From Streptomyces luomodiensis (GTDB taxonomy: Bacteria > Actinomycetota > Actinomycetes > Streptomycetales > Streptomycetaceae), in NCBI RefSeq assembly GCF_031679605.1, contig NZ_CP117522.1:124001-188000 (forward strand): a stretch of DNA of 64,000 bases, given 5' to 3'. The translations under genes and the position numbers were made by a program. Shown here in pieces: positions 17,352 through 59,984 of the stretch; the first letter of the stretch is position 1; the number at the start of each line of letters is the position of its first letter. The notes under the pieces were generated by a model that was not told the origin of the DNA, ran no database searches, and saw only the letters and a list, made by a program, of their open reading frames with translations.

Positions 17352-17954
17352 TCATCGTCCGCCAGAAGCGGAGGAGTGCCCTCGGATTCCGTCCAGGAGG
17401 TACATGGTGCGGCGGTCGTAGTCGGCCCGGGGAGGCCGCTTGCCGTGCTTGAGGGCGAGGGCGTTGTCGACGACGAGGGCGTGGAGGTCGCCCGCCGTGA
17501 ACTCCGGCCGCAGCGCACCGGAGGCCCGTGCCGCTGCGATGAGCTCTTCGTTGGCCTCGCTTCCGACCCGGCAGATCTCCATGAGCTGCTGCGAGTGCGG
17601 ATATGTCTGCAACAGGACGTCGTTGAAGGCGGGCTGGCGGTACTGGAGGTCGCGGATCGCGGTGAGGTAGTACGCGATCCGCTCGCCGACGTCGTCGATG
17701 GTCCGAGTGTGGTCGATGACGGCGAACAGCTCACTCGCCACAACCTCTTCGATGACGGCTTCGATGAGGCCGATCCGCCCGCCGAACCGGTTGAAGATCG
17801 TGGCCTTACTCACGCCTGCTGCCTTGGCTACCTCCTCCAGCGGCACCGTCAGGCCCTGCCCCTGGAAGGCGCCGATTGCGGCCGAGCGGATCTGTTCGGA
17901 ATTGCGCCGGGCGTCGGCGCGCAGCCGGGCTTCCGAAGGCACCGCACCAGCCAT
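17352..17954 (-). CDS. TetR-family regulator, divergent from the NmrA-like gene
   Basis: TetR repressor of about 200 residues. The HTH region is VPLEEVAKAAGVSKATIFNR and FGGRIGLIEAV; the C-terminal ligand domain is all-helical and of the type with QPAFNDVLLQTYPHSQQ. ATG 17954 is taken; a GTG three codons earlier is also possible. The gene is divergent from an NAD(P)H-binding oxidoreductase and a TGACC/GGTCA dyad lies between them, so local repression of that gene is likely. Confidence 0.85.
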   Translation of the reverse strand: MAGAVPSEARLRADARRNSEQIRSAAIGAFQGQGLTVPLEEVAKAAGVSKATIFNRFGGRIGLIEAVIEEVVASELFAVIDHTRTIDDVGERIAYYLTAIRDLQYRQPAFNDVLLQTYPHSQQLMEICRVGSEANEELIAAARASGALRPEFTAGDLHALVVDNALALKHGKRPPRADYDRRTMYLLDGIRGHSSASGGR

Positions 17955-18039
17955 GGCCCTCACCGTCCCTTCCTGTCGCCCGTCGTCGTAATTTGACTCG
18001 CCGGGTCAGCTTACCTACGGTCGTCGACAGGAGAGAACC

Positions 18040-18054
18040 TGACCCTATTGGTCA
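18040..18054. promoter_or_regulatory. Inverted repeat between the tetR and NmrA-like genes
   Basis: TGACC-CTATT-GGTCA (5+5+5) lies about 60 bases upstream of the oxidoreductase start. A related imperfect repeat, TGACTCGCCGGGTCA, sits some 45 bases further upstream. The two may be the operator pair of the divergent TetR. Coordinates are accurate to about one base. Confidence 0.4.
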
Positions 18055-18112
18055 ACTTATGCTGCCGCCCACCCTGAGACGGACACCGTGGGCGCTCAGG
18101 AAGGTCGAGAAC

Positions 18113-18967
18113 ATGATCGTTGTCACCGGCGCCACTGGTGGACTGGGCGGCGCTACCGTCGACCACCTCCTCAAGCGCATACCCGCCGACCAGATCGGTG
18201 TCAGTGTCCGCGACGCCGCCAAGGCGCAGCACTTCGCCGACCGTGGCGTGCGCGTGCGGCAGGGCTCCTACGAGGACCCGGCCGCGCTGCGTGACTCATT
18301 CGCCGGGGCCGAGCAGGTCCTTCTGGTGTCCGGCAACGACCCGGCCGCCGACATGGTCAGCCTGCACCGCAATGCCATCGAAGCCGCGGCCGCGGCCGGC
18401 GCCCGGCGGGTCCTCTACACGAGCCAGCAGGGCGCCGTCCCTGGCAACCCGTACCCGCCGTCGGACATCCACATCGCCACCGAGGCGATCCTCGGCGACT
18501 GCGGCGCCGCCTGGACCGCACTGCGCAACGGCGCCTACGGCCCGCTCGATCAGGTTCTCGGCCCGTGGCAGCGGACCGGCGTGATCGCCCAACCGGAAGA
18601 CGGCCCCGTCCCGTATACCGACCGTGCCGATATAGCCGAGGCCACTGCGGTCATTCTCGCCGGTGACCGCTCCTTCGACGGCCCCGTCACCCTCACCGCG
18701 CCGACCGCCGTCACCCTCGACGATTTCACCAAGATCGCCTCTGATCTCACCGGTCGCACCATCAAGCGCATCCTCCTGGACGACGAACAGTGGATCGCCG
18801 ACCAGATCACGATCGGTATGCCGGAGCAGATGGCCCGACTCATGCTCACCTGGTATCAGGCAGCCCGCGCGGGCTACTTCGCTGAAGCCGACCCTCTGCT
18901 GGCCGAACTCCTGGGCCGCGAGCCCCGCACCGCCGCTGACCGGCTCGCAGCCCACATCGCCGCCTGA
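18113..18967 (+). CDS. NmrA-like NAD(P)H-binding oxidoreductase
   Basis: Atypical SDR of 284 residues. The Rossmann motif VTGATGGLGG lies right at the N-terminus (start ATG 18113, GGAAGG just upstream), with RRVLYTSQQGAVPGNPYPP in the middle and a C-terminal region DDFTKIASDLTGRTIKRIL as in NAD(P)H:quinone oxidoreductase QorB-like proteins. The catalytic Tyr-Lys pair of classical SDRs is not obvious, typical for this subgroup. It probably reduces a quinone or senses redox state, under control of the divergent TetR gene. Confidence 0.85.
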   Translation: MIVVTGATGGLGGATVDHLLKRIPADQIGVSVRDAAKAQHFADRGVRVRQGSYEDPAALRDSFAGAEQVLLVSGNDPAADMVSLHRNAIEAAAAAGARRVLYTSQQGAVPGNPYPPSDIHIATEAILGDCGAAWTALRNGAYGPLDQVLGPWQRTGVIAQPEDGPVPYTDRADIAEATAVILAGDRSFDGPVTLTAPTAVTLDDFTKIASDLTGRTIKRILLDDEQWIADQITIGMPEQMARLMLTWYQAARAGYFAEADPLLAELLGREPRTAADRLAAHIAA

Positions 18968-19007
18968 AGCTGAGCTTCTGTCCGATCGCCTGATCGTTGA
19001 CCTGGGT

Positions 19008-19830
19008 ATGCCCTTGGCTGACGCCCAGTGGGCGCGGATCGAGCCACTGCTCCCGAGCCGAACCCCAAAGCGTGGCGGCCGGTGGCGAGATCACCGGCAG
19101 ATGATCGACGCCATCGCGTTCAGGTTCCAGACCGGGACGCAATGGGTCCATTTACCGGGCAAGTACGGCAATGGGAAAGGCGTCTACAACCGACTTCGCA
19201 TGTGGGCCATTGACGGCACCTGGCGGCGAGTGTTCACCGCGCTGATGGCGCAGGCCGACGCCGACGACGACCTCGGCTGGGCCGTCTCAGTGGACTTCAC
19301 GATCGTACGCGCCCACCAGCACGCCGCCGGAGCCCGCAAAAGGGGACCCGACTGACGAACCACACGACCACGCCATCGGCCGGTCCCGCGGCGGACTGAC
19401 CACGAACATCCACCTCGCCGCCGACGCCGGCTGCCGCCCTCTGGCGTTTCTTCTCACCGCCGGACAGGCCGGCGACGCACCCGCAATCACCGACGTCATG
19501 GCCCGCCTGCGCGTTCCCCGAAAACGTGGCCGCCCGCGCACCACGCCGGACGTTGTCCTGGCGGACAAGGCGTACTCCTCCCCCGCGATCCGCGAGCACC
19601 TGCCCACGCGCGGCATCCGGGCAGTGATCCCCGCCCCCGCCGACCAGCGCGGACACCGGCAACGTCGGGGCAGACACGGCGGCAGACCACCGGCCTTCGA
19701 CCGCGAGACCTACAAGCAGCGCAACACCGTCGAACGGCGTATCAACCGCCTGAAGCAGTGGCGAGGCATCGCCACCCGCTACGAGAAGACCACCATCTAC
19801 CTGGCTGGTCACCGTTCTCCACCTGCGTAA
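19008..19830 (+). pseudogene. IS5-family (IS427-like) transposase in two frames
   Basis: The first frame from ATG 19008 gives MPLADAQWARIEPLLPSRTP and FRFQTGTQWVHLPGKYGNG, ending at TGA 19353-19355. The second begins in the overlapping CGCAAAAGGGGACCC region and carries GRSRGGLTTNIHLAADAGC, LADKAYSSPAIREHLPTRG and RNTVERRINRLKQWRGIATR. Members of this group often join two frames by a -1 slip, but here the second frame is +1 (or -2), so this is more likely a true frameshift. The C-terminus is also shifted (YLAGHRSPPA). I could not define its terminal repeats. Confidence 0.75.
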
Positions 19831-23045: not shown

Positions 23046-24647
23046 TCACCTTGCGATCTTGATGCCTGCCGCCTCCCGGTCCCAGGTGTCCGAGGTAACG
23101 CCCACTTCACGCAGACTCGCCTTCTGGATCTTGGCAGTTGGCGTTTTCGGCAGTTGCTCCACGAACCGGATGTAGCGGGGGACCATGTAGTACGCCATGC
23201 GTGGCTGGAGGAACCGGATCAGGTCCACCGGATCGATCGTGACGCCCGGATCCGGGGCGATCACTGCCATCACTTCGTCTTCGGAGATCTCACCGGCGAC
23301 CGCGACCACCGCCGCTTCTCGCACATGTGGGTACGCCCTGATCTCTGCCTCGACCTCCATCGACGAGATGTTTTCTCCCCGCCGTCGGATCGAGTCCTTG
23401 AGCCGGTCGACGAAGTAATAGTTGCCTTCCGCGTCCTTCCAGGCCGCGTCTCCGGTGTGGAACCAACCGTTTCGCCACGCTTCGGCCGTGGCCTCCGGCA
23501 TGTGGAAGTAGCCGTGGTTCAGCGCCCAGGGGGCGTCCGTGCGAACGATGATTTCGCCCACTCCGCCGACGGGCACCTCGCAGTCGGCGTCGTCGACCAA
23601 TCTGATCTCCACGCCTGGGCGAGCTTTTCCGCAGGTCCCTCGCCTGGTGGGGTTCGGTCCCGAGATGATCGGCGCAGAGAGTTCGGTCATGTTGTAGATC
23701 GTGTAGACGTCCACGCCAAAGCGTTTGGAGAAGGACGCGACGTCGTCGAGCAGTGGCGCCATGAACACCTTGGTGAGAGGGTTGTCCGCATCGTGGTCGG
23801 CGGGCGGGCGCCGGTCGACGAAGTTGGCCATGACGCCGAGGAGAAAAACCATCGTGCTCTGGGAGTCGCGGATCTGCCCCCAGAACCGCTCACTACTGAA
23901 TCGATCGACGACCGCGACCGAACCGCCGTTGATCAGCATCGCGTAGAGCAACGTCGAGCCGCCGACGTGGAAGGTCGGCATGTTGATCAGAAAACGGTCC
24001 TCGGCGGTCATGATGGGCATCGTCTCCGGACCGAACGCCGCCCATGCTTGCATGTAGGACGACAGAACTCCCTTGGAGGGACCTGTGGTGCCAGAGGTAT
24101 AGAGGATCGCCTGAGTGTGCCAGGGCTCCACCGGGTGCGGCAGGTCTGAGGGCTCCCCTTGGACAGCGGTCAGTTCCTCGGCCGGTATGACCTGAAGCCC
24201 GTCGATGTCGAGCCGTCGGTCTCCGCCGACCTGGACGGCGAGCCGGATCCTGCCACGGGCCTCGATCTCGGCCAGTCGCGGCAGCAGTCCGGCCTCGCCG
24301 ATGATGATCTCCGCATCAGAGTTGCTGAGCACATGGGAGAGCACGCCACCCCGGTACGCCGTATTGATCGGCACGAACACCGCACCGAGATAGTTGATCG
24401 CGAACCAGAACCGGAGTACGTCAGAACCGTTAGGGAGCCAGCACACCACCTTGTCGTGCTGACGCACCCCGATCGACTCCAGCGCCACGGCCGTCTGTCG
24501 CACCTGCCGCAGCAGCTCGCCCCGCGTCCAGACAGGACCGCCGTCAAAGATCGCAAACACTTTGTCCGGGTCCTCGGCGGCTCGGCGTTCCAGCAGATAT
24601 CGCAGGACGAGCTCATCACGAGGAGGGACTCGCGGGTCCGTTGACAC
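23046..24647 (-). CDS. AMP-forming acyl-CoA ligase (CaiC-like)
   Basis: ATP-dependent CoA ligase of 533 residues from the ANL superfamily. Motifs are the phosphate loop ILYTSGTTGPSKGV, YNMTELSAP, WFHTGDAAWKDAEGNYYFVD, the hinge DRLKDSIRRRGENISSMEVE and the catalytic Lys region PKTPTAKIQK. The closest recognisable group is crotonobetaine/carnitine-CoA ligase-like enzymes, though the true acid is unknown. GTG 24647 follows AAAGGAGC. Two palindromes lie in the divergent promoter it shares with the iron alcohol dehydrogenase, so it probably activates the acid degraded by the downstream acyl-CoA dehydrogenase and hydratase. Confidence 0.92.
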   Translation of the reverse strand: MSTDPRVPPRDELVLRYLLERRAAEDPDKVFAIFDGGPVWTRGELLRQVRQTAVALESIGVRQHDKVVCWLPNGSDVLRFWFAINYLGAVFVPINTAYRGGVLSHVLSNSDAEIIIGEAGLLPRLAEIEARGRIRLAVQVGGDRRLDIDGLQVIPAEELTAVQGEPSDLPHPVEPWHTQAILYTSGTTGPSKGVLSSYMQAWAAFGPETMPIMTAEDRFLINMPTFHVGGSTLLYAMLINGGSVAVVDRFSSERFWGQIRDSQSTMVFLLGVMANFVDRRPPADHDADNPLTKVFMAPLLDDVASFSKRFGVDVYTIYNMTELSAPIISGPNPTRRGTCGKARPGVEIRLVDDADCEVPVGGVGEIIVRTDAPWALNHGYFHMPEATAEAWRNGWFHTGDAAWKDAEGNYYFVDRLKDSIRRRGENISSMEVEAEIRAYPHVREAAVVAVAGEISEDEVMAVIAPDPGVTIDPVDLIRFLQPRMAYYMVPRYIRFVEQLPKTPTAKIQKASLREVGVTSDTWDREAAGIKIAR

Positions 24648-24687
24648 GGCGCGCTCCTTTCGCGCTGACACCAGCCAGCACAATATT

Positions 24688-24704
24688 GACTGGTCGGTAC
24701 AGTC
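24688..24704. promoter_or_regulatory. Palindromic operator, type 2, ligase promoter
   Basis: GACTG-GTCGGTA-CAGTC is a 5+7+5 inverted repeat 40 bases upstream of the ligase start. Its reverse complement contains ACTGTACCGACCAGTC, a 16-mer found exactly at 28430-28445 and with one change at 36542-36557. An AT-rich CAATAT lies just downstream in the ligase direction and may be the -10 box. Confidence 0.65.
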
Positions 24705-24800
24705 ATAGAGGAAGGATCCACTTGTCAAGACCTGAGACCCAGTGTGCGAGGAGTACAACCACAAGCACAAGGGCGAAGGACAGTGCACTTCCCATGGACT

Positions 24801-24822
24801 CTGTACCGGATGGACGGTACAG
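24801..24822. promoter_or_regulatory. Perfect palindromic operator, type 1, adh promoter
   Basis: CTGTACCG-GATGGA-CGGTACAG is an exact 8+6+8 inverted repeat 55 bases upstream of the iron alcohol dehydrogenase start. The same CTGTACCG half-site recurs across the cluster. It is the best-formed member of the family and a likely TetR site. Confidence 0.75.
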
Positions 24823-24877
24823 TTCCGCGACACCCGCTAACCCAGCCACAATGAAGTGAGTACCTGGAGGTTGAGTC

Positions 24878-26053
24878 GTGCCCGAGATCGTGAAGTTTGA
24901 AATGCCGCGGGTCGAGACCGTCGTTCAAGGCATCGGTGCGGTACGCGAGATTGCCGCCGAACTCGATCGTCGCGGACTGCGACGCGTGTTTCTCGTGACC
25001 GGCCACTCCGTCGGGTCGGGCGCGGCCTTCGCGGAACTCGCTTCCAACCTCGGTGGCCGGGTGGTCGGGACGTTCAAGGGGGTAAGGGCACACAATCCGG
25101 TCGAGCTGATCGTGGAGCTGATCAAGGAGGTGAGGTCCGCGCACGTGGACGCCTTGGTCGCGATCGGCGGGGGGTCACCGATCGACGCTGCGAAATTGAC
25201 CGCGATCGGCATCTGTGAGGGCTCGGACTCGGTCGAGGACGTCTCCCGCAACTACCTGGAATTCGAGTACCCCAGCACGGTCCGACAGCGCCCTCTGACC
25301 GGGAAGCCCATGCCGGTCTTCGCCGTCCCCACCACGCTGTCCGCGGCCGAGTGGGACGGCTTCGCCGGCTCGGTCGATCAGTCTCGCGACACCAAGGACC
25401 TGACCGTCTACCTCGAGGCCACTCCCCGGGTGGTCTTCCTCGATCCCGAGTTCTGCGCGCACACCCCCCGCGATCTGTGGGCCACCACGGGCGTGCGAGC
25501 GTTGGACCACGCTGTCGAGACCGCGTATGCCAAGAACGCGCACCCATTCACGACCGCGTTGGCGAACGGCGCCCTGGCGATGCTGGCCGAGAACCTCCCG
25601 CGATCCGCGAAAGACCCTCATGACTACGAGGCGGCGCTCAAGTGTCTCGAGGCGGCGTGGATGTCCATCATCGGCGTCCACAACGTATCCCTCGGCCTCT
25701 CCCACGCCATCGGCCATCAGCTCGGCGCGGTGGGCATCCCCCACGGGGTGACCTCATGCATCATGCTCCCGCACGTGATGCGCTTCCTGGAGCCGGTGAC
25801 CTCCACGGAGCAGGCCCGCATGGCGCAATCTCTCGCGCAGGTACAAGGTGACGCCGAGGATCTCTCTGCCGCCGACCGGCTCGAGCGGATCCTCGACGAG
25901 CTCGCGGTACCACGCCGGGTCTCCGATTTCGGAGTCGGACGCGACAAGATGAAAGGCGTCGCGCGGGCAGCGCTGGGAGACATCGTAGTCCGGGAGTCGC
26001 CGCGAACCGTCGACGAAGCCGCGATCCACGAATTGCTGGAGACCGTCTGGTAA
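24878..26053 (+). CDS. Iron-containing alcohol dehydrogenase
   Basis: Group III (Fe-ADH) NAD(P)-dependent dehydrogenase of 391 residues. The N-terminal dinucleotide fold shows VDALVAIGGGSPIDAAKL and the C-terminal helical domain holds the metal ligands within RALDHAVETAYAKN and LGLSHAIGHQLGAVGIPHG. The family includes lactaldehyde, 4-hydroxybutyrate and maleylacetate reductases, and I cannot choose among them. It starts just downstream of the perfect type 1 palindrome and converges on the TetR gene across a strong hairpin. A collapsed copy of parts of this gene lies at 27.1-27.2 kb. Confidence 0.9.
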   Translation: MPEIVKFEMPRVETVVQGIGAVREIAAELDRRGLRRVFLVTGHSVGSGAAFAELASNLGGRVVGTFKGVRAHNPVELIVELIKEVRSAHVDALVAIGGGSPIDAAKLTAIGICEGSDSVEDVSRNYLEFEYPSTVRQRPLTGKPMPVFAVPTTLSAAEWDGFAGSVDQSRDTKDLTVYLEATPRVVFLDPEFCAHTPRDLWATTGVRALDHAVETAYAKNAHPFTTALANGALAMLAENLPRSAKDPHDYEAALKCLEAAWMSIIGVHNVSLGLSHAIGHQLGAVGIPHGVTSCIMLPHVMRFLEPVTSTEQARMAQSLAQVQGDAEDLSAADRLERILDELAVPRRVSDFGVGRDKMKGVARAALGDIVVRESPRTVDEAAIHELLETVW

Positions 26054-26082
26054 TTGAAGGCCGGTCGCGGCCCGAACCACCT

Positions 26083-26135
26083 AAGGGTAGGAGAGAGGGG
26101 CCCGGCATGGCACCGCGCCCCTCTCTCCTACCCTT
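26083..26135. terminator. Strong bidirectional terminator hairpin
   Basis: The arms 26083-26101 and 26117-26135 are perfectly complementary over 19 bases (AAGGGTAGGAGAGAGGGGC and its complement) around a 15-base loop. It lies between the convergent alcohol dehydrogenase and tetR stops. A degraded copy lies at 27218-27270. Confidence 0.85.
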
Positions 26136-26144
26136 CTCCCCCGC

Positions 26145-26756
26145 TCAGCGGTCACGGTCACGCACGCCCTCCAGCAGCGCGTTGGTGAACAAATCCGCGA
26201 TCTCCTCAGGGGCACGATCCCCATGCGGCTGGATCCACGCGTAGGAAAAGTTGTACATACCGAGGATCCCTTTTGTGACCAGAGGATCCATGGGGCGGAA
26301 TTCACCCGCTTTCGCGCCGCCCTCCAGGAGCTCGGCGACCATGCTCTCGTATCTGTCACGAGCATCCTGAATGACGACACGCCGCTGCCCCGTCAGTGCT
26401 CCGAACTCATGGAAGGCAACCCTCCATTCCAGCACGTGGTCGGCGAGGTTGCGCATCGTCGACCGCATCAGCTCACGGAACCGCTGCTCATAGGTGGCGT
26501 CCATCGCCAGGACCCGGCCGGACTGCGTCAGCAGGTCGGACATGCGAGTGTGGCAGATCTCGAAGAGCACGGCTTCTTTGTTGCCGATGTGGTGGTAAAG
26601 CGCACCGCGGCCGATCTTTGATTCGCTGGAGATCAGCTCAATGCCGGTTGCATGGTATCCGTTCTCAGCGAACAGCCTCACCGCAGCCTGCATGATCCGC
26701 TGTTTGGCTTCCAGGCCCGCCCGGTTCGATCGACGCGTCGACATGCCCGACTTCAT
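26145..26756 (-). CDS. TetR-family regulator of the catabolic cluster (1)
   Basis: TetR protein of about 203 residues with a basic N-terminus (STRRSNRAGLEAKQRIMQAA), HTH GIELISSESKIGRGALYHHI and a helical ligand domain. The start is uncertain: ATG 26756 is used, but ATG 26744 and GTG 26783 are in frame and none has a good ribosome site. It converges on the alcohol dehydrogenase gene and lies in a tract carrying at least five related palindromes, so it is a prime candidate to bind them, with an acyl-CoA as likely ligand. A remnant of a second copy (27288-27348) is present. Confidence 0.85.
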   Translation of the reverse strand: MKSGMSTRRSNRAGLEAKQRIMQAAVRLFAENGYHATGIELISSESKIGRGALYHHIGNKEAVLFEICHTRMSDLLTQSGRVLAMDATYEQRFRELMRSTMRNLADHVLEWRVAFHEFGALTGQRRVVIQDARDRYESMVAELLEGGAKAGEFRPMDPLVTKGILGMYNFSYAWIQPHGDRAPEEIADLFTNALLEGVRDRDR

Positions 26757-26821
26757 AGCAGCCAATGTTGATGCTTCCCTCACTTGTAGGTCGACGGTGC
26801 GGGAGCCCAGGGACGAACGAC

Positions 26822-26945
26822 AAAGCTCACGCCACCACTTTCACGTCGATGTGATCTCGTCGCCGACCGCCCACCGGTTCAGACAACGTCCGCCCCCCAC
26901 TGCGCTGTGGCCGTCAAACGATGAGACCCCGATTACTCGCGTCGC
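26822..26945 (-). pseudogene. Fossil 5' end of a second quinone oxidoreductase gene
   Basis: The 26822-26974 stretch aligns with 28226-28385, the first 40 codons and promoter of the intact quinone oxidoreductase. Shared blocks include TTTCACGTCGATG, TGATCTCGTC, CACCGGTTC and CTTCCTCAC, with scattered changes and short indels. The start codon equivalent has become ACG and the remainder of the gene is absent. Confidence 0.65.
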
Positions 26946-26958
26946 ACTTCCTCACATG

Positions 26959-26974
26959 TACCGATCGTACGGTA
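26959..26974. promoter_or_regulatory. Palindrome, type 1, before the fossil oxidoreductase gene
   Basis: TACCGATCGTACGGTA matches the intact copy TACCGACCGTACGGTA at 28370-28385 in 15 of 16 positions. It now has no intact gene on the left, so it is a relic or still binds regulator as a decoy. Confidence 0.6.
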
Positions 26975-27120
26975 TCTTGGAAACCCACGCCGCCCATGGC
27001 CGACGTGCTGGCGATGCCCGGCCGGGCGGCAGGCGCTCCGCGGCCGCTGCGGCGGATCTTCTGGTCGGCCAGGAAGCCGCTGATGGCACGGACTGCCGGC
27101 ACAGAACGCCAACAGAGTTT

Positions 27121-27348
27121 CTGTACCGGATGGACGGTCTACCTCTGGCTCGGGCAGCACCCTCTGACGGCGAAGCCTGGGCCGCTCTTCGCCGTTCCCA
27201 CACGTGTCCGAACTACCGGGCAGGTAGGAGAGAGGGGCCCGGCATGGCACCGCGCCCCTCTCCCCTGCCCTTCCCCTCTCTCAGCGGTGCAACGTTCCAC
27301 TCCAGTACATGGTCGGCGAGGTTGCGCATCGTCGACCGCATCAGCTCA
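27121..27348. pseudogene. Collapsed second copy of adh promoter, adh, terminator and tetR
   Basis: Four pieces appear in the same order as in the intact locus: CTGTACCGGATGGACGGT at 27121 equals the adh operator 24801; 27155-27204 matches adh codons at 25285-25335 (CCCTCTGAC, CTTCGCCGT); 27218-27270 matches the terminator 26085-26135; 27288-27348 matches tetR 26416-26475 (GGTCGGCGAGGTTGCGCATC). About 1.7 kb has shrunk to 230 bases by internal deletions. It ends 20 bases from the intact oxidoreductase stop. Confidence 0.7.
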
Positions 27349-27367
27349 GAGCCTCGACCGAAATCAG

Positions 27368-28345
27368 CTAGCCGACTGCACCGACTTCGAGAACGAGCTT
27401 CCCGGAGGCAGTGCGGTCTTCCATCGCGATCAGCGCCTTCGCAGCATCGGCCAACGAATACACGCCTCCCACAACAGGGCGGATAAAGCCCTCATGGGCG
27501 AGACGCGTGAGTTCCGCTGCAGAATCCGCAGCAATCGTGTCGTCCTGCTCGACGAAGCCACCCCAGTAGACCCCCACGACCTCAATGTTCTTGAGGAGAA
27601 GCCTATTCACGGCAATTTCCGGAATTCCGCCGGCCGCAAAGCCGATCACGAGGTGGCGACCCTCGGGGCGGAGAAGCCGAATCGCGTCGGCGAAGTACTC
27701 GCCGCCGACCGGGTCCACCGTGACGTCGACTCCGCCCGCAGCCCCTGCCCGGACCGCATTGGCCCAGTCTTCGCCGGCCACCACGACAGCGTCGGCACCC
27801 GCGGACTCGGCCACCGTGATATTGGCCGCGGAATCGACCACGGCGGTGACCGTCGCGCCGAGCCCCTTCGCGACCTGAATGGCCGCCGTGCCCACGCCTC
27901 CGGCGGCTCCGTGCACCAAGACGTGCTCTCCCGCCTTGAGCCGCCCGCGGCGCACCAGGGCGAAGTGCACCGTCTGGAAGTTCATCGCGAAGGCCGCGCC
28001 CTGCTGGAACGAAAGCTCGTCGGGCAGGGGGAACGTCACCGCCGGCTTGGCGACGACGACCTCGGCATAACCACCGCGCGGCACGTAGGCGGCACACCGA
28101 TCGCCGGCCTTCACCGACGCGCCCTCGGGAGCCGATCGCACCACACCGGCCACCTCGACACCCGGCACGAACGGCAGGTCGGGCCGAACCTGGTACTTGC
28201 CGCGCGTCATGAGAGCGTCGACGAAGCTCACGCCTACCGCTTTCACGTCGATGGTGATCTCGTCATCAGCCGCCACCGGTTCGGCAATCTTCACCAGTTC
28301 CACAGCGTCGGGGCCATCAAGCGATGAGATCTGAATTGCTCGCAT
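27368..28345 (-). CDS. Quinone oxidoreductase / zinc-free MDR-family NADPH reductase
   Basis: Medium-chain reductase of 325 residues. It has the N-terminal GroES-like domain (FVPGVEVAGVVRSAPEGASV, GDRCAAYVPRGGYAEVV) and the nucleotide motif HGAAGGVGTAAIQVAK. It lacks the zinc-binding Cys/His set of classical alcohol dehydrogenases, as in QOR and acryloyl/crotonyl-CoA-type reductases. ATG 28345 follows GAGGAAG. A type 1 palindrome lies 25 bases upstream of the start, so it should be repressed with the rest of the cluster. NADPH from the nearby transhydrogenase would suit it. Confidence 0.9.
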   Translation of the reverse strand: MRAIQISSLDGPDAVELVKIAEPVAADDEITIDVKAVGVSFVDALMTRGKYQVRPDLPFVPGVEVAGVVRSAPEGASVKAGDRCAAYVPRGGYAEVVVAKPAVTFPLPDELSFQQGAAFAMNFQTVHFALVRRGRLKAGEHVLVHGAAGGVGTAAIQVAKGLGATVTAVVDSAANITVAESAGADAVVVAGEDWANAVRAGAAGGVDVTVDPVGGEYFADAIRLLRPEGRHLVIGFAAGGIPEIAVNRLLLKNIEVVGVYWGGFVEQDDTIAADSAAELTRLAHEGFIRPVVGGVYSLADAAKALIAMEDRTASGKLVLEVGAVG

Positions 28346-28369
28346 AGTGCTTCCTCACGTCCCAGTGTG

Positions 28370-28385
28370 TACCGACCGTACGGTA
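28370..28385. promoter_or_regulatory. Palindromic operator, type 1, quinone oxidoreductase promoter
   Basis: TACCGACCGTACGGTA, extended to GTACCG...CGGTAC, begins 25 bases upstream of the oxidoreductase ATG on the opposite strand, so it would overlap the promoter or 5' leader. It belongs to the same family as 24801-24822 and 36479-36494. Confidence 0.7.
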
Positions 28386-28429
28386 CAGAACAGAGCCTCA
28401 AGATGTTGACGAGCACGAGAGGCAGGGTT

Positions 28430-28445
28430 ACTGTACCGACCAGTC
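28430..28445. promoter_or_regulatory. Palindromic operator, type 2
   Basis: ACTGTACCGACCAGTC is identical to the reverse complement of the ligase-promoter site at 24688. It is 44 bases from the type 1 site at 28370, giving a two-operator array facing the MaoC-like gene on one side and the oxidoreductase on the other. Confidence 0.65.
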
Positions 28446-28976
28446 GGGTTCGAGGCAAGGGACATGCCTCTGAGGTGCGGCCTTCGCCTCACCCGCAGCC
28501 GAGGTCGCGCCAGTCGTTCGGACCACCGGTCCGCGCAGCACACCGCTTCCCCCGAGGAGGAAGGGAGACCGCATGCATGAGTGAATGCCGTCGGGCCACC
28601 TCGGTACGTCGAAGTGCCCCCGGGTGGCTTCACCGACCTGAGCCATCCGCTGACGCTCATGACGGCTGCTGAAGTCGCCGAGCACTACGCCACCGTCAGC
28701 GGATGCACCCGCGACCGCCTGCACCTCTACCTCGGCATGGGCGCGATGTGGCGACACGAGACGAGGTGGATCTCGACAGGGCCGTTCGAGCTCTTATCGC
28801 GCGCTCTGAGTCACCGCAAAATCCAGAAAGGACAGGATAATGATCGTCATTACAGAGTACCCGGGATGCCGGGAATCCACGATCCGGCCTTGCGGCCTGT
28901 CGCGGAACTCTCGAAGGCCCGTGCACCGGTCTCATGTGCAGGACGTGGATTCGGCCGTCGGCGGGAGGCTCGTCTG
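28446..28976 (+). other. 530-base tract upstream of the MaoC-like gene, possible decayed gene
   Basis: No intact gene is visible. One frame from about 28590 reads MTAAEVAEHYATVSGCTRDR and LHLYLGMGAMWRHE, which resembles the C-terminus of the APH-like phosphotransferase family found 2 kb downstream ([20 protein letters not shown]). If so, it is a truncated relative. An ATG near 28842 with an upstream AAAGGA opens MIVITEYPGC and about 45 codons that I do not recognise. Confidence 0.3.
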
Positions 28977-29927
28977 ATGCCGGAAGACCACCTCATACGT
29001 GTGCTGCCCGCAGACACTCCCGGCCTCGTTCGAACAGCCGAATACGACGTCGACGACCGCTGGCTCCGAGCCTTCGCGGCATCGGTCGGCGATACCCGAC
29101 CCGAGCTCTTCGATCTCGATCGCAGCGGTGGAGTCCTCGCCCATCCGGTCTTCCCCGTCTGTATCGAATGGCCTCTGGTCGAATTCGGCGCTCCGGGCAT
29201 CGAATTGACGGTCGACACCCTGAGGTTGGGCCTGCACGTGTCCCACCGGACGCGACTGCACGCCCCACTGCAACCCGGTCAGCGGGTACGCACGGAAGCC
29301 GAGCTGTACCTCGCCGAAGCACGCAGCAATGCCGTGCACATCGCAACGGAGTTTCGGACCTTCTCGTCCGACGGCAAGCCGATCGTCACCACGCACCTGC
29401 ACATGCTCTACCGCGGTGTTCGTCTCGAGGGCACAAAGACACCCCCCAGCGGGCCATGGGACCCCTCGCCGAGCACCGAGGCGGAACTCATCCGCATCGC
29501 GACGTTCGACGTCGACGCCACCAACGCCGTTGTCTACAGCGAGTGTGCAAAGATATGGAACCCCATTCACACAGACATTCGCATCGCCCGCGCTGCCGGG
29601 TTGCCCAACACGGTCCTGCACGGCACGGAGGTCCTCGCTCGAGCGGTCTCAGCCGTGACACGTGCCGACGTCTTTCCCCTGGGGATGACGATCACTGGAA
29701 TCGACTGCCGCTTCACCAGCCCCGTCTTCCCTGGCATGACGCTCGCGGTCAATGCCGGACGTGTTTCCGGGAACTCCATCGCCTTCGATGTCCAGGGGGC
29801 GGACGGTACGTCACCGATCTCGGGCGGCCTCATCACGTTCGAGAGCGCAGCCAGTATCCATCGCGCGGGCGCGTCCTGGGAACCGTCACGAGATCGGGCG
29901 GAATCCCAGAGCTCGCTGAGCTCATGA
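28977..29927 (+). CDS. MaoC-like double hot-dog (R)-enoyl-CoA hydratase
   Basis: Predicted acyl-thioester hydratase/dehydratase of 316 residues with two hot-dog folds. The N-terminal FAS1-type domain spans about residues 15-150 and the C-terminal MaoC domain bears the hydratase motif around KIWNPIHTDIRIARAAGLPN, with the catalytic Asp/His pair, and NTVLHGTEVLARAV. ATG 28977 follows GGGAGG with an 8-base spacer. It would hydrate the enoyl-CoA made by the acyl-CoA dehydrogenase at 31.8 kb. The operator pair 530 bases upstream suggests co-regulation. Confidence 0.82.
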   Translation: MPEDHLIRVLPADTPGLVRTAEYDVDDRWLRAFAASVGDTRPELFDLDRSGGVLAHPVFPVCIEWPLVEFGAPGIELTVDTLRLGLHVSHRTRLHAPLQPGQRVRTEAELYLAEARSNAVHIATEFRTFSSDGKPIVTTHLHMLYRGVRLEGTKTPPSGPWDPSPSTEAELIRIATFDVDATNAVVYSECAKIWNPIHTDIRIARAAGLPNTVLHGTEVLARAVSAVTRADVFPLGMTITGIDCRFTSPVFPGMTLAVNAGRVSGNSIAFDVQGADGTSPISGGLITFESAASIHRAGASWEPSRDRAESQSSLSS

Positions 29928-29998: not shown

Positions 29999-30616
29999 GT
30001 GAACGCTGAGATGACCGGCGAAGGAGCGGAGTCGCGAAAGCCCGACAAGCTGCCCCAGCGGCTGCTTACCGCAGCGACGCGACTCTTCGCCGAGTACGGA
30101 TTCGAGGGCACCTCCGTCCAGAAGATCGTCGAAGCGGCGGGCGTGACAAAGGGCGCGCTGTACCACTACTTCGACTCCAAGGACGACCTTCTGCGCGATA
30201 TCTACGGCCGTGTGCTGCGCATGCAGGCTGAGCAGCTGGAGAAGTTCGCGACCACGCAGAGCCCAGTCGCCGAACGCCTGCGCAATGCCGCGGCCGACGT
30301 TGTACTCACCAGCATCGCCCATCTCGACGACACCAAGATTTTCTTCCGGTCGATGCATCAGTTGAGCGCGGACAATCAGCGGGCGGTACGCGCCGCGCGG
30401 CGCCGTTACCACGAAGGGTTCCGCACTCTGATCGAAGAAGGGCAGGCAGTCGGCGCCTTCCGCACCGACGTCCCGGCCGACCTCTTCGTGGACCTCTTCT
30501 TCGGGGCCGTCCACCACCTCAGCATCTGGTACCGGCATGACGGGACACTGTCCGCCGAGCGGATAGGCAGCCATTTCGCGGATCTGCTCCTGACCTCACT
30601 GCGCCCCACCGGCTGA
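29999..30616 (+). CDS. TetR-family regulator of the catabolic cluster (2)
   Basis: TetR protein of 205 residues with HTH TSVQKIVEAAGVTKGALYHY and FDSKDDLLRDIYGRV, and a ligand domain (FFRSMHQLSADNQRAVRAAR) resembling the acyl-CoA-sensing KstR2-like group. The start is uncertain: GTG 29999 or ATG 30011. It precedes the phosphotransferase, acyl-CoA dehydrogenase and SDR genes by 120 bases in the same direction. With two TetR proteins and two palindrome types in the cluster, each may recognise one type; that is inference. Confidence 0.85.
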   Translation: MNAEMTGEGAESRKPDKLPQRLLTAATRLFAEYGFEGTSVQKIVEAAGVTKGALYHYFDSKDDLLRDIYGRVLRMQAEQLEKFATTQSPVAERLRNAAADVVLTSIAHLDDTKIFFRSMHQLSADNQRAVRAARRRYHEGFRTLIEEGQAVGAFRTDVPADLFVDLFFGAVHHLSIWYRHDGTLSAERIGSHFADLLLTSLRPTG

Positions 30617-30738: not shown

Positions 30739-31764
30739 ATGAGCGACACCGATCCGCCCGGCCTCTCGCTGAGCCGTCTGCGCACCCACCTCGACCAAGA
30801 GCTGCCCGGTCTGGTCCACGGGCCTCTGCGGGGTGAGCTGATCGACGGCGGCAGGTCGAACCTGACCTACGTCGTGACCGACGGCTCCTCGCGTTGGGTC
30901 GTCCGACGGCCCCCGCTCGGACACGTGCTGGCCACGGCGCACAACATGGCGCGCGAGCACCGCGTCATCACGGCCCTGCACCCCACGGCGGTGCCGGTCC
31001 CGCAGCCAGTGCTGCTGTGCCAGGACCCCGACGTCCTCGGCGCACCGTTCTATGCCATGGAATACGTCGGGGGAACGCCGTACCGCACCCGTACGCAATT
31101 GGCGGCCCTCGGCCCCGACCGCACACGGGCGATCGCCCTCCGCCTCCTCGACACCCTGGTCGACCTGCATTCCGTCGATCCCTACGCCGTGGGACTCAGT
31201 GACTTCGGCCGTCCCCAGGGTTTCCTGGAGCGACAGATGCGCCGCTGGAGGAAGCAACTGGACGCCTCACGCAGCCGGCACGTGCCTGGTATCCAGGAGC
31301 TGCACGACCGGCTCGTGGGCACGCTGCCCGCTGCTCCGGAGTCCACCGTCGTGCACGGCGACTATCGGCTGGACAACGCCCTGATCGGGGCCGACGACCG
31401 GATCCGCGCCGTCCTCGACTGGGAGATGTCCACCCTCGGCGACCCGCTCACCGACCTGGCCCTGCTCGTCGTGTACGCCCGACTCGGCGCGGGAGACGAT
31501 GACGGACCGCTGTCCAACGCCGCCTCGGCACCCGGGTATCCGAGCACGGACGAGATCGTCGCCCGCTACGCCCACCTGTCCGGACGGGATGTCTCGGCGC
31601 TGAGCTGGTATATCGGACTGGCCTCCTTCAAGCTCGCCGTCGTCCTCGAAGGCATCCACTACCGCTTCAGCCAGGGACAGACAGTCGGGGGCGGATTCAA
31701 CCGCATCGGCGCCCTGGTCGCCCCACTCGTCGCACTCGGCCTGGCCCACCTGAAGGAAGACTGA
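30739..31764 (+). CDS. APH-like phosphotransferase associated with acyl-CoA dehydrogenase
   Basis: Aminoglycoside-phosphotransferase-fold protein of 341 residues. Motifs are the N-lobe [20 protein letters not shown], the catalytic loop [13 protein letters not shown] and the metal [17 protein letters not shown]. Family members fused to or beside acyl-CoA dehydrogenases (ACAD10/11-like) phosphorylate 4-hydroxyacyl-CoA so that it can be rearranged for beta-oxidation. Its stop overlaps the start of the acyl-CoA dehydrogenase gene (ATGA-type coupling), which strongly links the two. This suggests a hydroxy-acid substrate. AAAGGAA precedes ATG 30739. Confidence 0.9.
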
Positions 31765-36171: not shown

Positions 36172-36478
36172 CGTTTCCGCTCGAGGTTGAGCGCGAGAAG
36201 CAGTAGCTGAGCAAGCTGTCACCGAGACCGCCCTCGCCGGTGAGACGACCGGCCACATCGGCTACGAGAAGTACGACCGTCACCACCGGCGTAGGCCGGC
36301 GGGGCCGCAGACACCATTCCGCCGTCCGGAGCGCGCTGGGCCGACCCCCACCTGTTTCGCGCGATTCGCCATGGCCGCCGATGACGACCAGGGAAAGCGG
36401 CGGCACCAGCCGTCCGCGCTCAGGTGGAGCTTACTGGTGAGTCCGTCGCGCGAGCGGCGGACTCACCTCCCCCACGTG

Positions 36479-36494
36479 TACCGATCGAACGGTA
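36479..36494. promoter_or_regulatory. Orphan palindrome, type 1
   Basis: TACCGATCGAACGGTA belongs to the same family as the sites at 24801, 26959 and 28370, but it lies 6 kb from the end of the catabolic cluster in a 526-base gap (36172-36697) with no intact target gene on its left. Confidence 0.6.
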
Positions 36495-36541
36495 TAGAGA
36501 TCCATATCAGACGGTCTTTGACTCAGCCAGACCGAGGGAGT

Positions 36542-36557
36542 ACTGTACCGATCAGTC
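36542..36557. promoter_or_regulatory. Orphan palindrome, type 2
   Basis: ACTGTACCGATCAGTC differs by one base from the type 2 sites at 24688 and 28430. It follows the type 1 site by 47 bases, nearly the spacing seen at 28370/28430, so the whole promoter module has been copied here. Confidence 0.6.
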
Positions 36558-36697
36558 GATACGCACAATCCTTCTCGAGCAGCCGCTCCGGCAAGCACGG
36601 AGGTGAGCAGCGAGCGGGTGTACCGACCCAGCCCCGTGGCCAGGAGACGACCAACCTGACCACCCCATCCGCCACCCGAGCCACCACGGGAGGGCGC

Positions 36698-37288: not shown

Positions 37289-37600
37289 ATGGCCGCACCG
37301 CGCTTCAGCTACGCCTCGGACACCTCGGAGAGCCCTTGTGGGGTGAAACCGTTGGCGCGAACTTCGATCGCACCGTGGCCGCCTTCGGAGATCGGGAAGC
37401 CCTGGTGGACGTGGCAACGGGTCGTCGATGGACCTATCGAGAGCTTGCCGAAGCCAGTGCCGCGTTGAGCCCGGATGACCCGATCAACATCCAGTACACG
37501 TCGGGGACGACTGGTGTTCCCAGGGGGGCGACGCTGTCGCACCGCAGCGTCCTCAACAACGGTTTCCTCGCCGGGCGAGTTGTGTCACCAGGCCGACTAG
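37289..37600 (+). pseudogene. Acyl-CoA ligase fragment with internal deletion
   Basis: ATG 37289 begins MAAPRFSYASDTSESP, typical of fatty acyl-CoA ligases of the FadD3/AMP-binding type. After a one-base loss the frame continues VGANFDRTVAAFGDREALVD and TGRRWTYRELAE, then jumps in frame to ALSPDDPINIQYTSGTTGVP (phosphate loop) and SHRSVLNNGF before ending in unrelated sequence. About 100 residues between these blocks and the entire C-terminal half are missing. Confidence 0.7.
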
Positions 37601-37619
37601 GACCGGGTCTGTACTCCCG

Positions 37620-38300
37620 TGCCGTTCCGCCACGGCTGGAGCTGAGGAGCTTGGCGAGCGCGGCTTCCTTCTTGAAGGGGCCGAGCAGGTTCTCCGCTGG
37701 AACGCGGACATCGTCGAAGGACAGCTCCCTGGTGTCGGAGGCGTTCCAGCCGACCTTGGAGTACGGCGCTGCCACGGTCAGGCCCGGAGTGCCGGAGGGG
37801 ACGATGATCGCGCTGATCTCCTTGCCCCCGGACGCCGTGGTGCCGGTGACCGCCGTGATGGTGATCAGGGCGGTGATGTCGGTACCGGCATTGGTGATGA
37901 AGCACTTGCTGCCGTTGATCACCCACTCGTTCGTGGCCTCGTCCAGGCGCGCCGTCGTCCGGGTGGCTCCGGCGTCGGAGCCACCTCCCGGCTCGGTGAG
38001 CCCGAACGCGCCGAGGATCTCACCCGCGCACAGCCGGGGCAGCCATGTGGTCTTCTGCTCCGGGGCGCCGAAGAGGTAGAGGGGCATGGCACCGAGCGAC
38101 ACGCCCGCCTCCAGGGTGATGGCCACGGAGGAGTCGACCCGAGCCAGCTCCTCCAGGACCAGGCAGAGCGCGAGGTAGTCCCCGCCCATGCCCCCGTATT
38201 CCTCGGGAAACGGCAGCCCGAACAGTCCCAGCTTTCCCATCTCCCGGACGTTGTCGTACGGAAACGCGTGCCGCCCCGAGTGGTCCGCCGCGGGGCGGCT
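37620..38300 (-). pseudogene. Acyl-CoA dehydrogenase internal fragment
   Basis: The minus strand encodes YDNVREMGKLGLFGLPFPEE, FGLTEPGGGSDAGATRT, NGSKCFITNAGTDITALITI and SKVGWNASDTRELSFDDVRV: the middle of a short/branched-chain acyl-CoA dehydrogenase like those of leucine degradation. The first 40 or so residues and the C-terminal helices with the catalytic base are missing. It is fused on one side to the ligase fragment. Confidence 0.75.
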
Positions 38301-38449
38301 CTGGAGTCGGTGGGGATCAGCGCGCTGTCCGGCCAGAGCGCGCACCGTGCGGGAAACACTGGGGCGGCCGAGTCGCCCGGCCGTCCACACGCTGGTATCG
38401 ACCGGGGCGGCACTGTGGGGCGGATCCGGCGAGCGACGTCACGCTACGG

Positions 38450-58522: not shown

Positions 58523-59984
58523 GCCGCGACGCCGCTGGTGGCCGCGTTCGGTACGAGCCCGCGCGGCCCTGGCCGCCGCCTCGGCCGCCGCCGTCATCCT
58601 GGTCGGCACCGGCTGGTGGGTACACCACGACGTCTACCGTGAGGGCACGCGGATCGCCGAGAAGCAAGCCCAGGAACAGCTCTGGGCTCTCGTCGATCAG
58701 CTGAAGGAGGGTGTGGTTCCCGTTCGCAGAAGCGCCGTGCCGTACGAGGTCGTCGCGAGCGGCCGGCGCTCCGCTGTCGCCTACGGCGGAGGCATGGACG
58801 ATCTCGATCCCGGCACCCGCCATGTGCTGCCCGCCCCATCGCAGGCCAAGGAATCCGCGCTCTTGACGATCCGTCCCATCCGCATACCGGTGCGCCGCGA
58901 CGACAACCCCAGGGACGGATCCGATATGGCCGGCCGGACCTACATGGTGATGTCCGCCGATATCAGCGCCGATGAACTGAGCAGCGACAAAGCCGCCGCT
59001 CTGGGCGTCGCCGCCGACGCCCAGCTGCGCGTCTATGTGGTGGTGCTCCCCCACACGGCCGAGGCAATCACCAAGACCACCGACCGCCTGCTGCTGCGGG
59101 CCGGGCTCGTCAGCCTCGTACTGATCGGCGCCATCGCCTACTTCGCCGTCCGCATCGCGCTGCGGCCGGTCGAAGCCATCCGCGTCCTCACCGCCTCGGT
59201 CACCGCGAGCGACCCCCGCGAACGCGTCACCGTCCCCGCCACGGGACACGAGATCACCGCCCTGGCCACCACCATCAACACCACCCTCCAACGCCTCGAC
59301 AACGCCGCCGCCCAGCAGCGCCGCTTCGTCGCGGACGCCGCCCACGAACTGCGCAGCCCCCTCACCACACTGCTGGCCAGCCTGGAAGTCGCGCTCGCCT
59401 ACCCGGAACGCACCGACTGGCCCGCCGCGGCCACCACCGCCGCACGACAGACCCGCCGCCTCCAAGCCCTCGCCGAAGACCTGCTGCTCCTCGCCCGCCT
59501 CGACACCCGCACCCCCACAGCCGACCCCGAAACCGTCGACCTGACAGCCCTCGCCTCCCGGCTGACCGAGCAATACCCCCTCACCGAACGACCGTTGACC
59601 CTCACCTGCGACAGCACCGCCCCCGCACACGTACACGGAAACCCCGACGAATACGAACGGCTGCTGCGCAACCTCCTCGACAACGCCGCCCGCCACGCCG
59701 CCCACCGCATCCAGATCACCATCCGGAACCAGGACACCTGGGTCGTCCTCACGGTGCACGACGACGGACCGGGCGTACCCACCGAGGACGCCGAGCGCAT
59801 CTTCGAACGCTTCGTCCGGCTCGACGACGCCCGCTCCCGCGACCACGGCGGCACCGGCCTGGGCCTCGCCATCGCCCGCGACCTGGCCCACCGCCACCGA
59901 GGCACCCTCACCCTCACCCCCCGGACCCTCGGAGCATGCTTCCAGCTACGCCTTCCCCGAGCCCCCGCCCCGGCCGAGAAATGA
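58509..59984 (+). CDS. Membrane sensor histidine kinase
   Basis: 491-residue kinase starting at GTG 58509 inside the end of the regulator gene. It has two membrane helices (residues about 16-38 and 198-220) around a 160-residue extracellular sensor, then a HAMP linker, the H-box AQQRRFVADAAHELRSPLTT with the phosphorylated His, N-box LLRNLLDNAARHA, G1 HDDGPGVPTED and G2 HGGTGLGLAIARDLAHRH. It forms a two-component system with the overlapping regulator. The signal is unknown. Confidence 0.93.
   Translation: MNATEPRRRWWPRSVRARAALAAASAAAVILVGTGWWVHHDVYREGTRIAEKQAQEQLWALVDQLKEGVVPVRRSAVPYEVVASGRRSAVAYGGGMDDLDPGTRHVLPAPSQAKESALLTIRPIRIPVRRDDNPRDGSDMAGRTYMVMSADISADELSSDKAAALGVAADAQLRVYVVVLPHTAEAITKTTDRLLLRAGLVSLVLIGAIAYFAVRIALRPVEAIRVLTASVTASDPRERVTVPATGHEITALATTINTTLQRLDNAAAQQRRFVADAAHELRSPLTTLLASLEVALAYPERTDWPAAATTAARQTRRLQALAEDLLLLARLDTRTPTADPETVDLTALASRLTEQYPLTERPLTLTCDSTAPAHVHGNPDEYERLLRNLLDNAARHAAHRIQITIRNQDTWVVLTVHDDGPGVPTEDAERIFERFVRLDDARSRDHGGTGLGLAIARDLAHRHRGTLTLTPRTLGACFQLRLPRAPAPAEK

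Follow-up and report, generated by a model that had tools for sequence, protein, structure and literature searches.

Remnants of a probable tandem duplication of an adh-tetR-qor block in Streptomyces luomodiensis

Tandem duplication followed by random loss is a model of gene-order change and is best known from animal mitochondrial genomes. Under duplication-degeneration-complementation, the losses are complementary and lead to subfunctionalization. Bacteria delete useless DNA, and intermediates of duplication and loss are thus seldom legible in their genomes. Here, we describe a locus of Streptomyces luomodiensis at which pieces of both copies of a block remain alignable with their parents. 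It lies in a window of 64,000 bp, by which we mean the whole stretch of DNA analyzed (positions 124001-188000 of a single 10.04 Mb contig). Very probably, a block of ≈3 kb comprising an operator, adh (plus strand), a hairpin, tetR (minus), qor (minus), and the qor operator was tandemly duplicated, and each copy then lost the genes that survive in the other. The type of event is known; the locus is a clear example, in which an ordinary process has been fossilized in unusually legible form. Our literature search found no report of this locus among titles and abstract openings, which is not proof of absence.

Intact genes and relics of the block

The features of the locus are as follows, with copies numbered according to the duplication history that we favor. 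E-values are from BLASTN of 26788-27367 against the remainder of the window.

23046-24644, minus strand: AMP-ligase (Pfam-supported)
24801-24822: palindromic operator preceding adh, copy 1 (minus-strand profile score 18.3)
24878-26053, plus strand: adh, iron-containing alcohol dehydrogenase, intact, copy 1 (PF00465/PF25137)
26086-26139: terminator-like hairpin between the convergent adh and tetR, copy 1 (−50.9 kcal/mol on the minus strand)
26145-26783, minus strand: tetR regulator, intact, copy 1 (PF00440, PF17932)
26818-26974, minus strand: relic of qor, 5′ end with leader, copy 1 (74% to 28219-28385, E 3.0e-21)
26956-26973: TetR-type operator preceding tetR, within the qor relic (score 25.2)
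27045-27079, minus strand: 35-bp DDE transposase gene fragment between copies 1 and 2 (34/35 bases identical to a gene of a congener, L007)
27120-27138: left-half relic of the adh operator, copy 2 (19/19 bases identical to 24800-24818, E 7e-4)
27155-27210, plus strand: adh relic, copy 2 (83% to 25286-25343, E 2.7e-9)
27223-27288: hairpin relic downstream of qor, copy 2 (93% to 26086-26152, E 8.7e-22)
27289-27348, minus strand: tetR relic, copy 2 (55/60 bases identical to 26416-26475, E 4.5e-19)
27368-28345, minus strand: qor, PIG3-like quinone oxidoreductase, intact, copy 2 (PF00107, PF08240; TIGR02824 under its cut-off)
28367-28384: intact qor operator, copy 2 (score 17.7)
28977-29927, plus strand: MaoC-type protein (Pfam-supported)
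29999-30616, plus strand: second tetR (Pfam-supported)

The surviving genes, adh and tetR in copy 1 and qor in copy 2, are all intact and make up one complete set, in agreement with the first-pass annotation. The interval between tetR and qor spans 584 bp and holds no recognized gene. The annotation had read 26822-26974 as a diverged copy of the 5′ end and promoter of qor, and 27121-27348 as four ordered pieces of the adh/tetR locus; the alignments listed above recover the first match and all the pairs of the second. In the qor relic, the start codon is altered or lost and several small gaps are present. Ungapped repeats within the pairs have identities of 94% (26086-26139/27223-27276), 92% (26416-26475/27289-27348), 81% (25281-25332/27150-27201), and 75% (26897-26955/28300-28358). 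The matches had been expected to be colinear at 75-85% identity; colinearity is borne out, and the identities range more widely, from 74 to 94%, with the operator at 100%.

That the matches would exceed chance in GC-rich DNA held for every piece: the true score was reached by none of 1000 dinucleotide shuffles and by none of 1000 same-length stretches of the window, which served as real-DNA controls, for each of the five. When the window was compared with itself and 32 kb of flank (E ≤ 1e-5), no direct repeats other than four of the five pairs had both copies within the window; the pair missing at this threshold was the 19-bp operator. The remaining matches comprised three inverted pairs and one direct repeat that reaches into the left flank. 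This direct repeat (59606-59903; 298 bp, 97% identical) has its other copy ≈78 kb leftward in the flank (L079). A 67-bp inverted repeat (50471-50536/51710-51776; 96% identical, copies ≈1.2 kb apart) resembles the ends of a mobile element.

The pieces run from left to right as qor, operator, adh, hairpin, and tetR, all in one orientation and in the cyclic order of the block, the colinear arrangement that a head-to-tail repeat demands. Spliced alignment placed the four pieces of 27120-27348 in block order; we take the three fillers that it suggested (18, 6, and 6 columns) as chance, and no obvious micro-homology was seen at the deletion ends in this alignment. An amendment to the first-pass annotation is that the DNA between the copies (26975-27120) holds the transposase fragment. 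The gene it matches in the congener encodes a product with a PF13358 DDE_3 match, and we take the fragment to be of the IS630 type; a further exact match of 25 bp to it lies at ≈25 kb of the window's genome. Homology stops at an operator on both sides of the junction.

Single blocks in relatives and the origin of the relics

An unduplicated block had been predicted to occur in relatives, and a single set of adh (plus), tetR (minus), and qor (minus) is present in six (L036, L063, L064, L065, L076, and L077) in the predicted order and orientation. Four of 30 loci examined carry AMP-ligase (minus), adh (plus), tetR (minus), qor (minus), and maoC (plus) in order: Nocardia carnea (L036), Rhodococcus koreensis R85 plasmid unnamed2 (L063), a Rhodococcus plasmid (L064), and R. 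jostii RHA1 pRHL1 (L065; G1292 shares coordinates with this match, and the two were counted once). L076 and L077 have the same gene order; in L077, adh and tetR lie ≈1.5 kb apart. The other 26 loci mostly have adh without the block; in one, L041, AMP-ligase, adh, and tetR lie on one strand with no qor. Relatives with two full copies, also suggested by the annotation, were not found among the genomes searched, all of them more distant than close strains: each relative examined has one adh.

Conversely, no relative was found that has the scraps without the block; among 295 genomes of the genus, only the window's own matched a piece together with its neighbors, and the matches in a few congeners, none longer than 44 bp or better than E 3e-5, fell within single pieces. 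The relic DNA alone, compared with four block-bearing genomes, gave one match, which lies inside the genome's own tetR (G818). A search of 100 relatives with the whole block (E ≤ 1e-10) returned nine matches, the own genome and eight that match within qor only.

Taken together, order, orientation, and the single block of the relatives support the annotated history of a block duplication after which copy 1 lost qor and copy 2 lost adh and tetR. A head-to-tail duplication of operator, adh, hairpin, tetR, and qor would have been followed by loss of the body of qor from copy 1, with adh and tetR retained there, and by the reduction of adh and tetR in copy 2 to islands of ≈56-60 bp, with qor retained. 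Both relic stretches, with the transposase fragment between them, now occupy the tetR-qor interval. Weighing against this history are the failure to find a genome with two full copies, the uneven divergence of the pieces (below), and a relic of a phosphotransferase gene at 28641-28748 (36 residues aligned, 56% identity). The Rhodococcus plasmids carry this gene intact, between qor and maoC; its relic shows that genes here can also shrink to islands without duplication. A different phosphotransferase gene is found at 30739-31764 (54% to that of Nocardia carnea), and open reading frames at 37336-38390 resemble remnants of a truncated AMP-ligase (plus) and an acyl-CoA dehydrogenase (minus).

The islands are short with abrupt edges, and permutation allows a single age for the four pieces of 27120-27348 (p 0.087), as would be expected if a single template-switching repair event had copied short pieces into the tetR-qor gap and no full second copy had ever existed. 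Fragments left by a switching polymerase are often mixed in order and orientation, however, whereas the exact cyclic order and single orientation seen here are expected of a tandem duplication and arise in only 1/3840 random arrangements of five pieces. We infer duplication over such piecewise copying, which we consider improbable.

The cluster as a whole looks acquired. The adh gene was found in 1/295 genomes of the genus (E ≤ 1e-60) and in 1/394 of the class (E ≤ 1e-100), in both cases the window's own, and the nearest proteins are from Rhodococcus, Prauserella, Amycolatopsis, and one Hyphomicrobiales metagenome-assembled genome (86-88% among the best rows); this distribution suggests that the cluster was probably acquired by this genome. 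At strict cut-offs, the gene occurs in 5/390 genomes in the family of G673 and in 3/401 in the family of G672. Stretches at 17384-19156 resemble DNA near the block in L077 and in L076 (84% over 509 bp), so the shared cluster extends leftward. Acquisition, together with the transposase fragment between the copies, would also suit a second arrival, in which a diverged block from another donor was inserted beside the first, perhaps with a transposase element, before complementary losses. The scraps nevertheless match the window's locus better than that of any of the six relatives, and the hairpin sequence is found only in the window, so the donor would have to be nearer than the relatives compared; we hold this alternative to be very unlikely. 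Chance resemblance in GC-rich DNA, which has nothing in its favor except base composition, is ruled out for practical purposes by the shuffled and real-DNA controls for each piece.

Returning to tandem duplication, its age can be bounded by comparison with the relatives. The scraps are closer to the window's own genes than to those of any of the six, identity at 4-fold sites between the window's three genes and those of five relatives is only 36-52%, and the hairpin common to both copies has no alignment with sequence in the same gap of the relatives. These comparisons indicate that the duplication postdates the divergence from the relatives compared. No row of protein relatives was closer to a relic peptide than to the intact sequence (58 rows for adh, with one truncated row dropped, and 29 for tetR, own proteins included), a count tilted against the relics by an X at one relic position in each peptide. 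Relic and intact sequences differ at 0/19 ungapped columns in the operator, 10/61 in adh, 4/66 in the hairpin, 5/60 in tetR, and 29/155 in qor. This divergence is uneven (hairpin and tetR versus qor, Fisher p 0.005, a contrast picked after seeing the data), and permutation gave p 0.017 for heterogeneity among the five pieces and p 0.18 for the coding pieces alone. Gene conversion as the source of the lower hairpin and tetR divergence is unnecessary at such modest heterogeneity.

Control elements in the debris

The qor-tetR gap is 30-74 bp, with both genes on the same strand, in five of the six relatives (L077 excluded), versus 584 bp in the window. This arrangement suggests that qor and tetR probably formed one transcription unit in the ancestor. 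The losses would have parted these near neighbors into two units. Less certain than the duplication itself, the two genes are likely to be separate units now, in which the regulation of both could have been retained; the order of the losses and this functional outcome are what we infer from the present arrangement.

Operators were scored with a profile of 18 hand-chosen sites of relatives out of 25 TGTACCG sites; the seven left out were judged not promoter-proximal, although the one at 8458 of L077 does lie between AMP-ligase and adh. At 25.2, the operator within the qor relic has the third highest score in the 64 kb, versus 17.7 for the intact qor operator, and it lies ≈170 bp upstream of tetR with no intervening gene. 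This operator is not conserved significantly better than the remainder of the qor relic (p 0.09). In L077, an operator-like TGTACCG lies within the tetR-qor gap, and, given the ≈1.5 kb between adh and tetR there, its tetR may have its own promoter. A second strong pair of such operators, separated by 67 bp, is found at 36476-36560 with no block gene adjoining; operator pairs are spaced by 64 bp on the qor side in the window and by 68-69 bp in Rhodococcus. As a candidate third copy of the qor-side promoter, 36476-36560 was rejected: the operators match, and the spacer is not beyond chance (151/1000 shuffles at least as good).

Downstream of qor, the hairpin of copy 2 still folds (−46.8 kcal/mol on the minus strand), and, as for the hairpin of copy 1, none of 200 shuffles folded as well. 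By inspection, two changes in its stem weaken one strand each, and we discern no signal of strand-specific selection. A terminator scan flagged neither hairpin and found no T-tailed terminator there, and a consensus promoter scan found none in 24600-28700.

It is plausible that each surviving gene has a putative control element in the debris, the operator for tetR and the hairpin for qor. Tentatively, the operon may have undergone fission, with tetR driven by the leftover qor promoter under its TetR-responsive operator and qor transcription ending at the leftover hairpin, which would leave one repressor acting on two units that can be tuned independently. The duplication itself may have stemmed from recombination between operator repeats, a possibility suggested by the end of homology at an operator on both sides of the junction.

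Comparison with known systems

The modest significance of the locus rests on a preserved intermediate and a possible split of control. It allows one to ask which redundant parts vanish earliest and whether control elements persist longer than coding ones, and it offers a concrete route to the separate control of a regulator gene and its neighbor without relocation.

As in duplication-degeneration-complementation, the two copies together retain one full set of genes. Unlike in that model, whole genes rather than subfunctions of one gene are partitioned, and selective retention of control elements is only putative. The likeness to tandem duplication and random loss lies in the adjacent duplication, the loss of one copy of each gene, and the relics between survivors. 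The locus differs from that model in that it lies on a bacterial chromosome and that gene order is unchanged, with only the distance between qor and tetR and their shared control elements altered. The closest counterparts of the block itself, on R. koreensis R85 plasmid unnamed2 and R. jostii RHA1 pRHL1, share its genes, their order and orientation, and operators at the corresponding promoters, whereas the block in these plasmids is single-copy, with tetR and qor 49-74 bp apart and the phosphotransferase gene beside qor intact.
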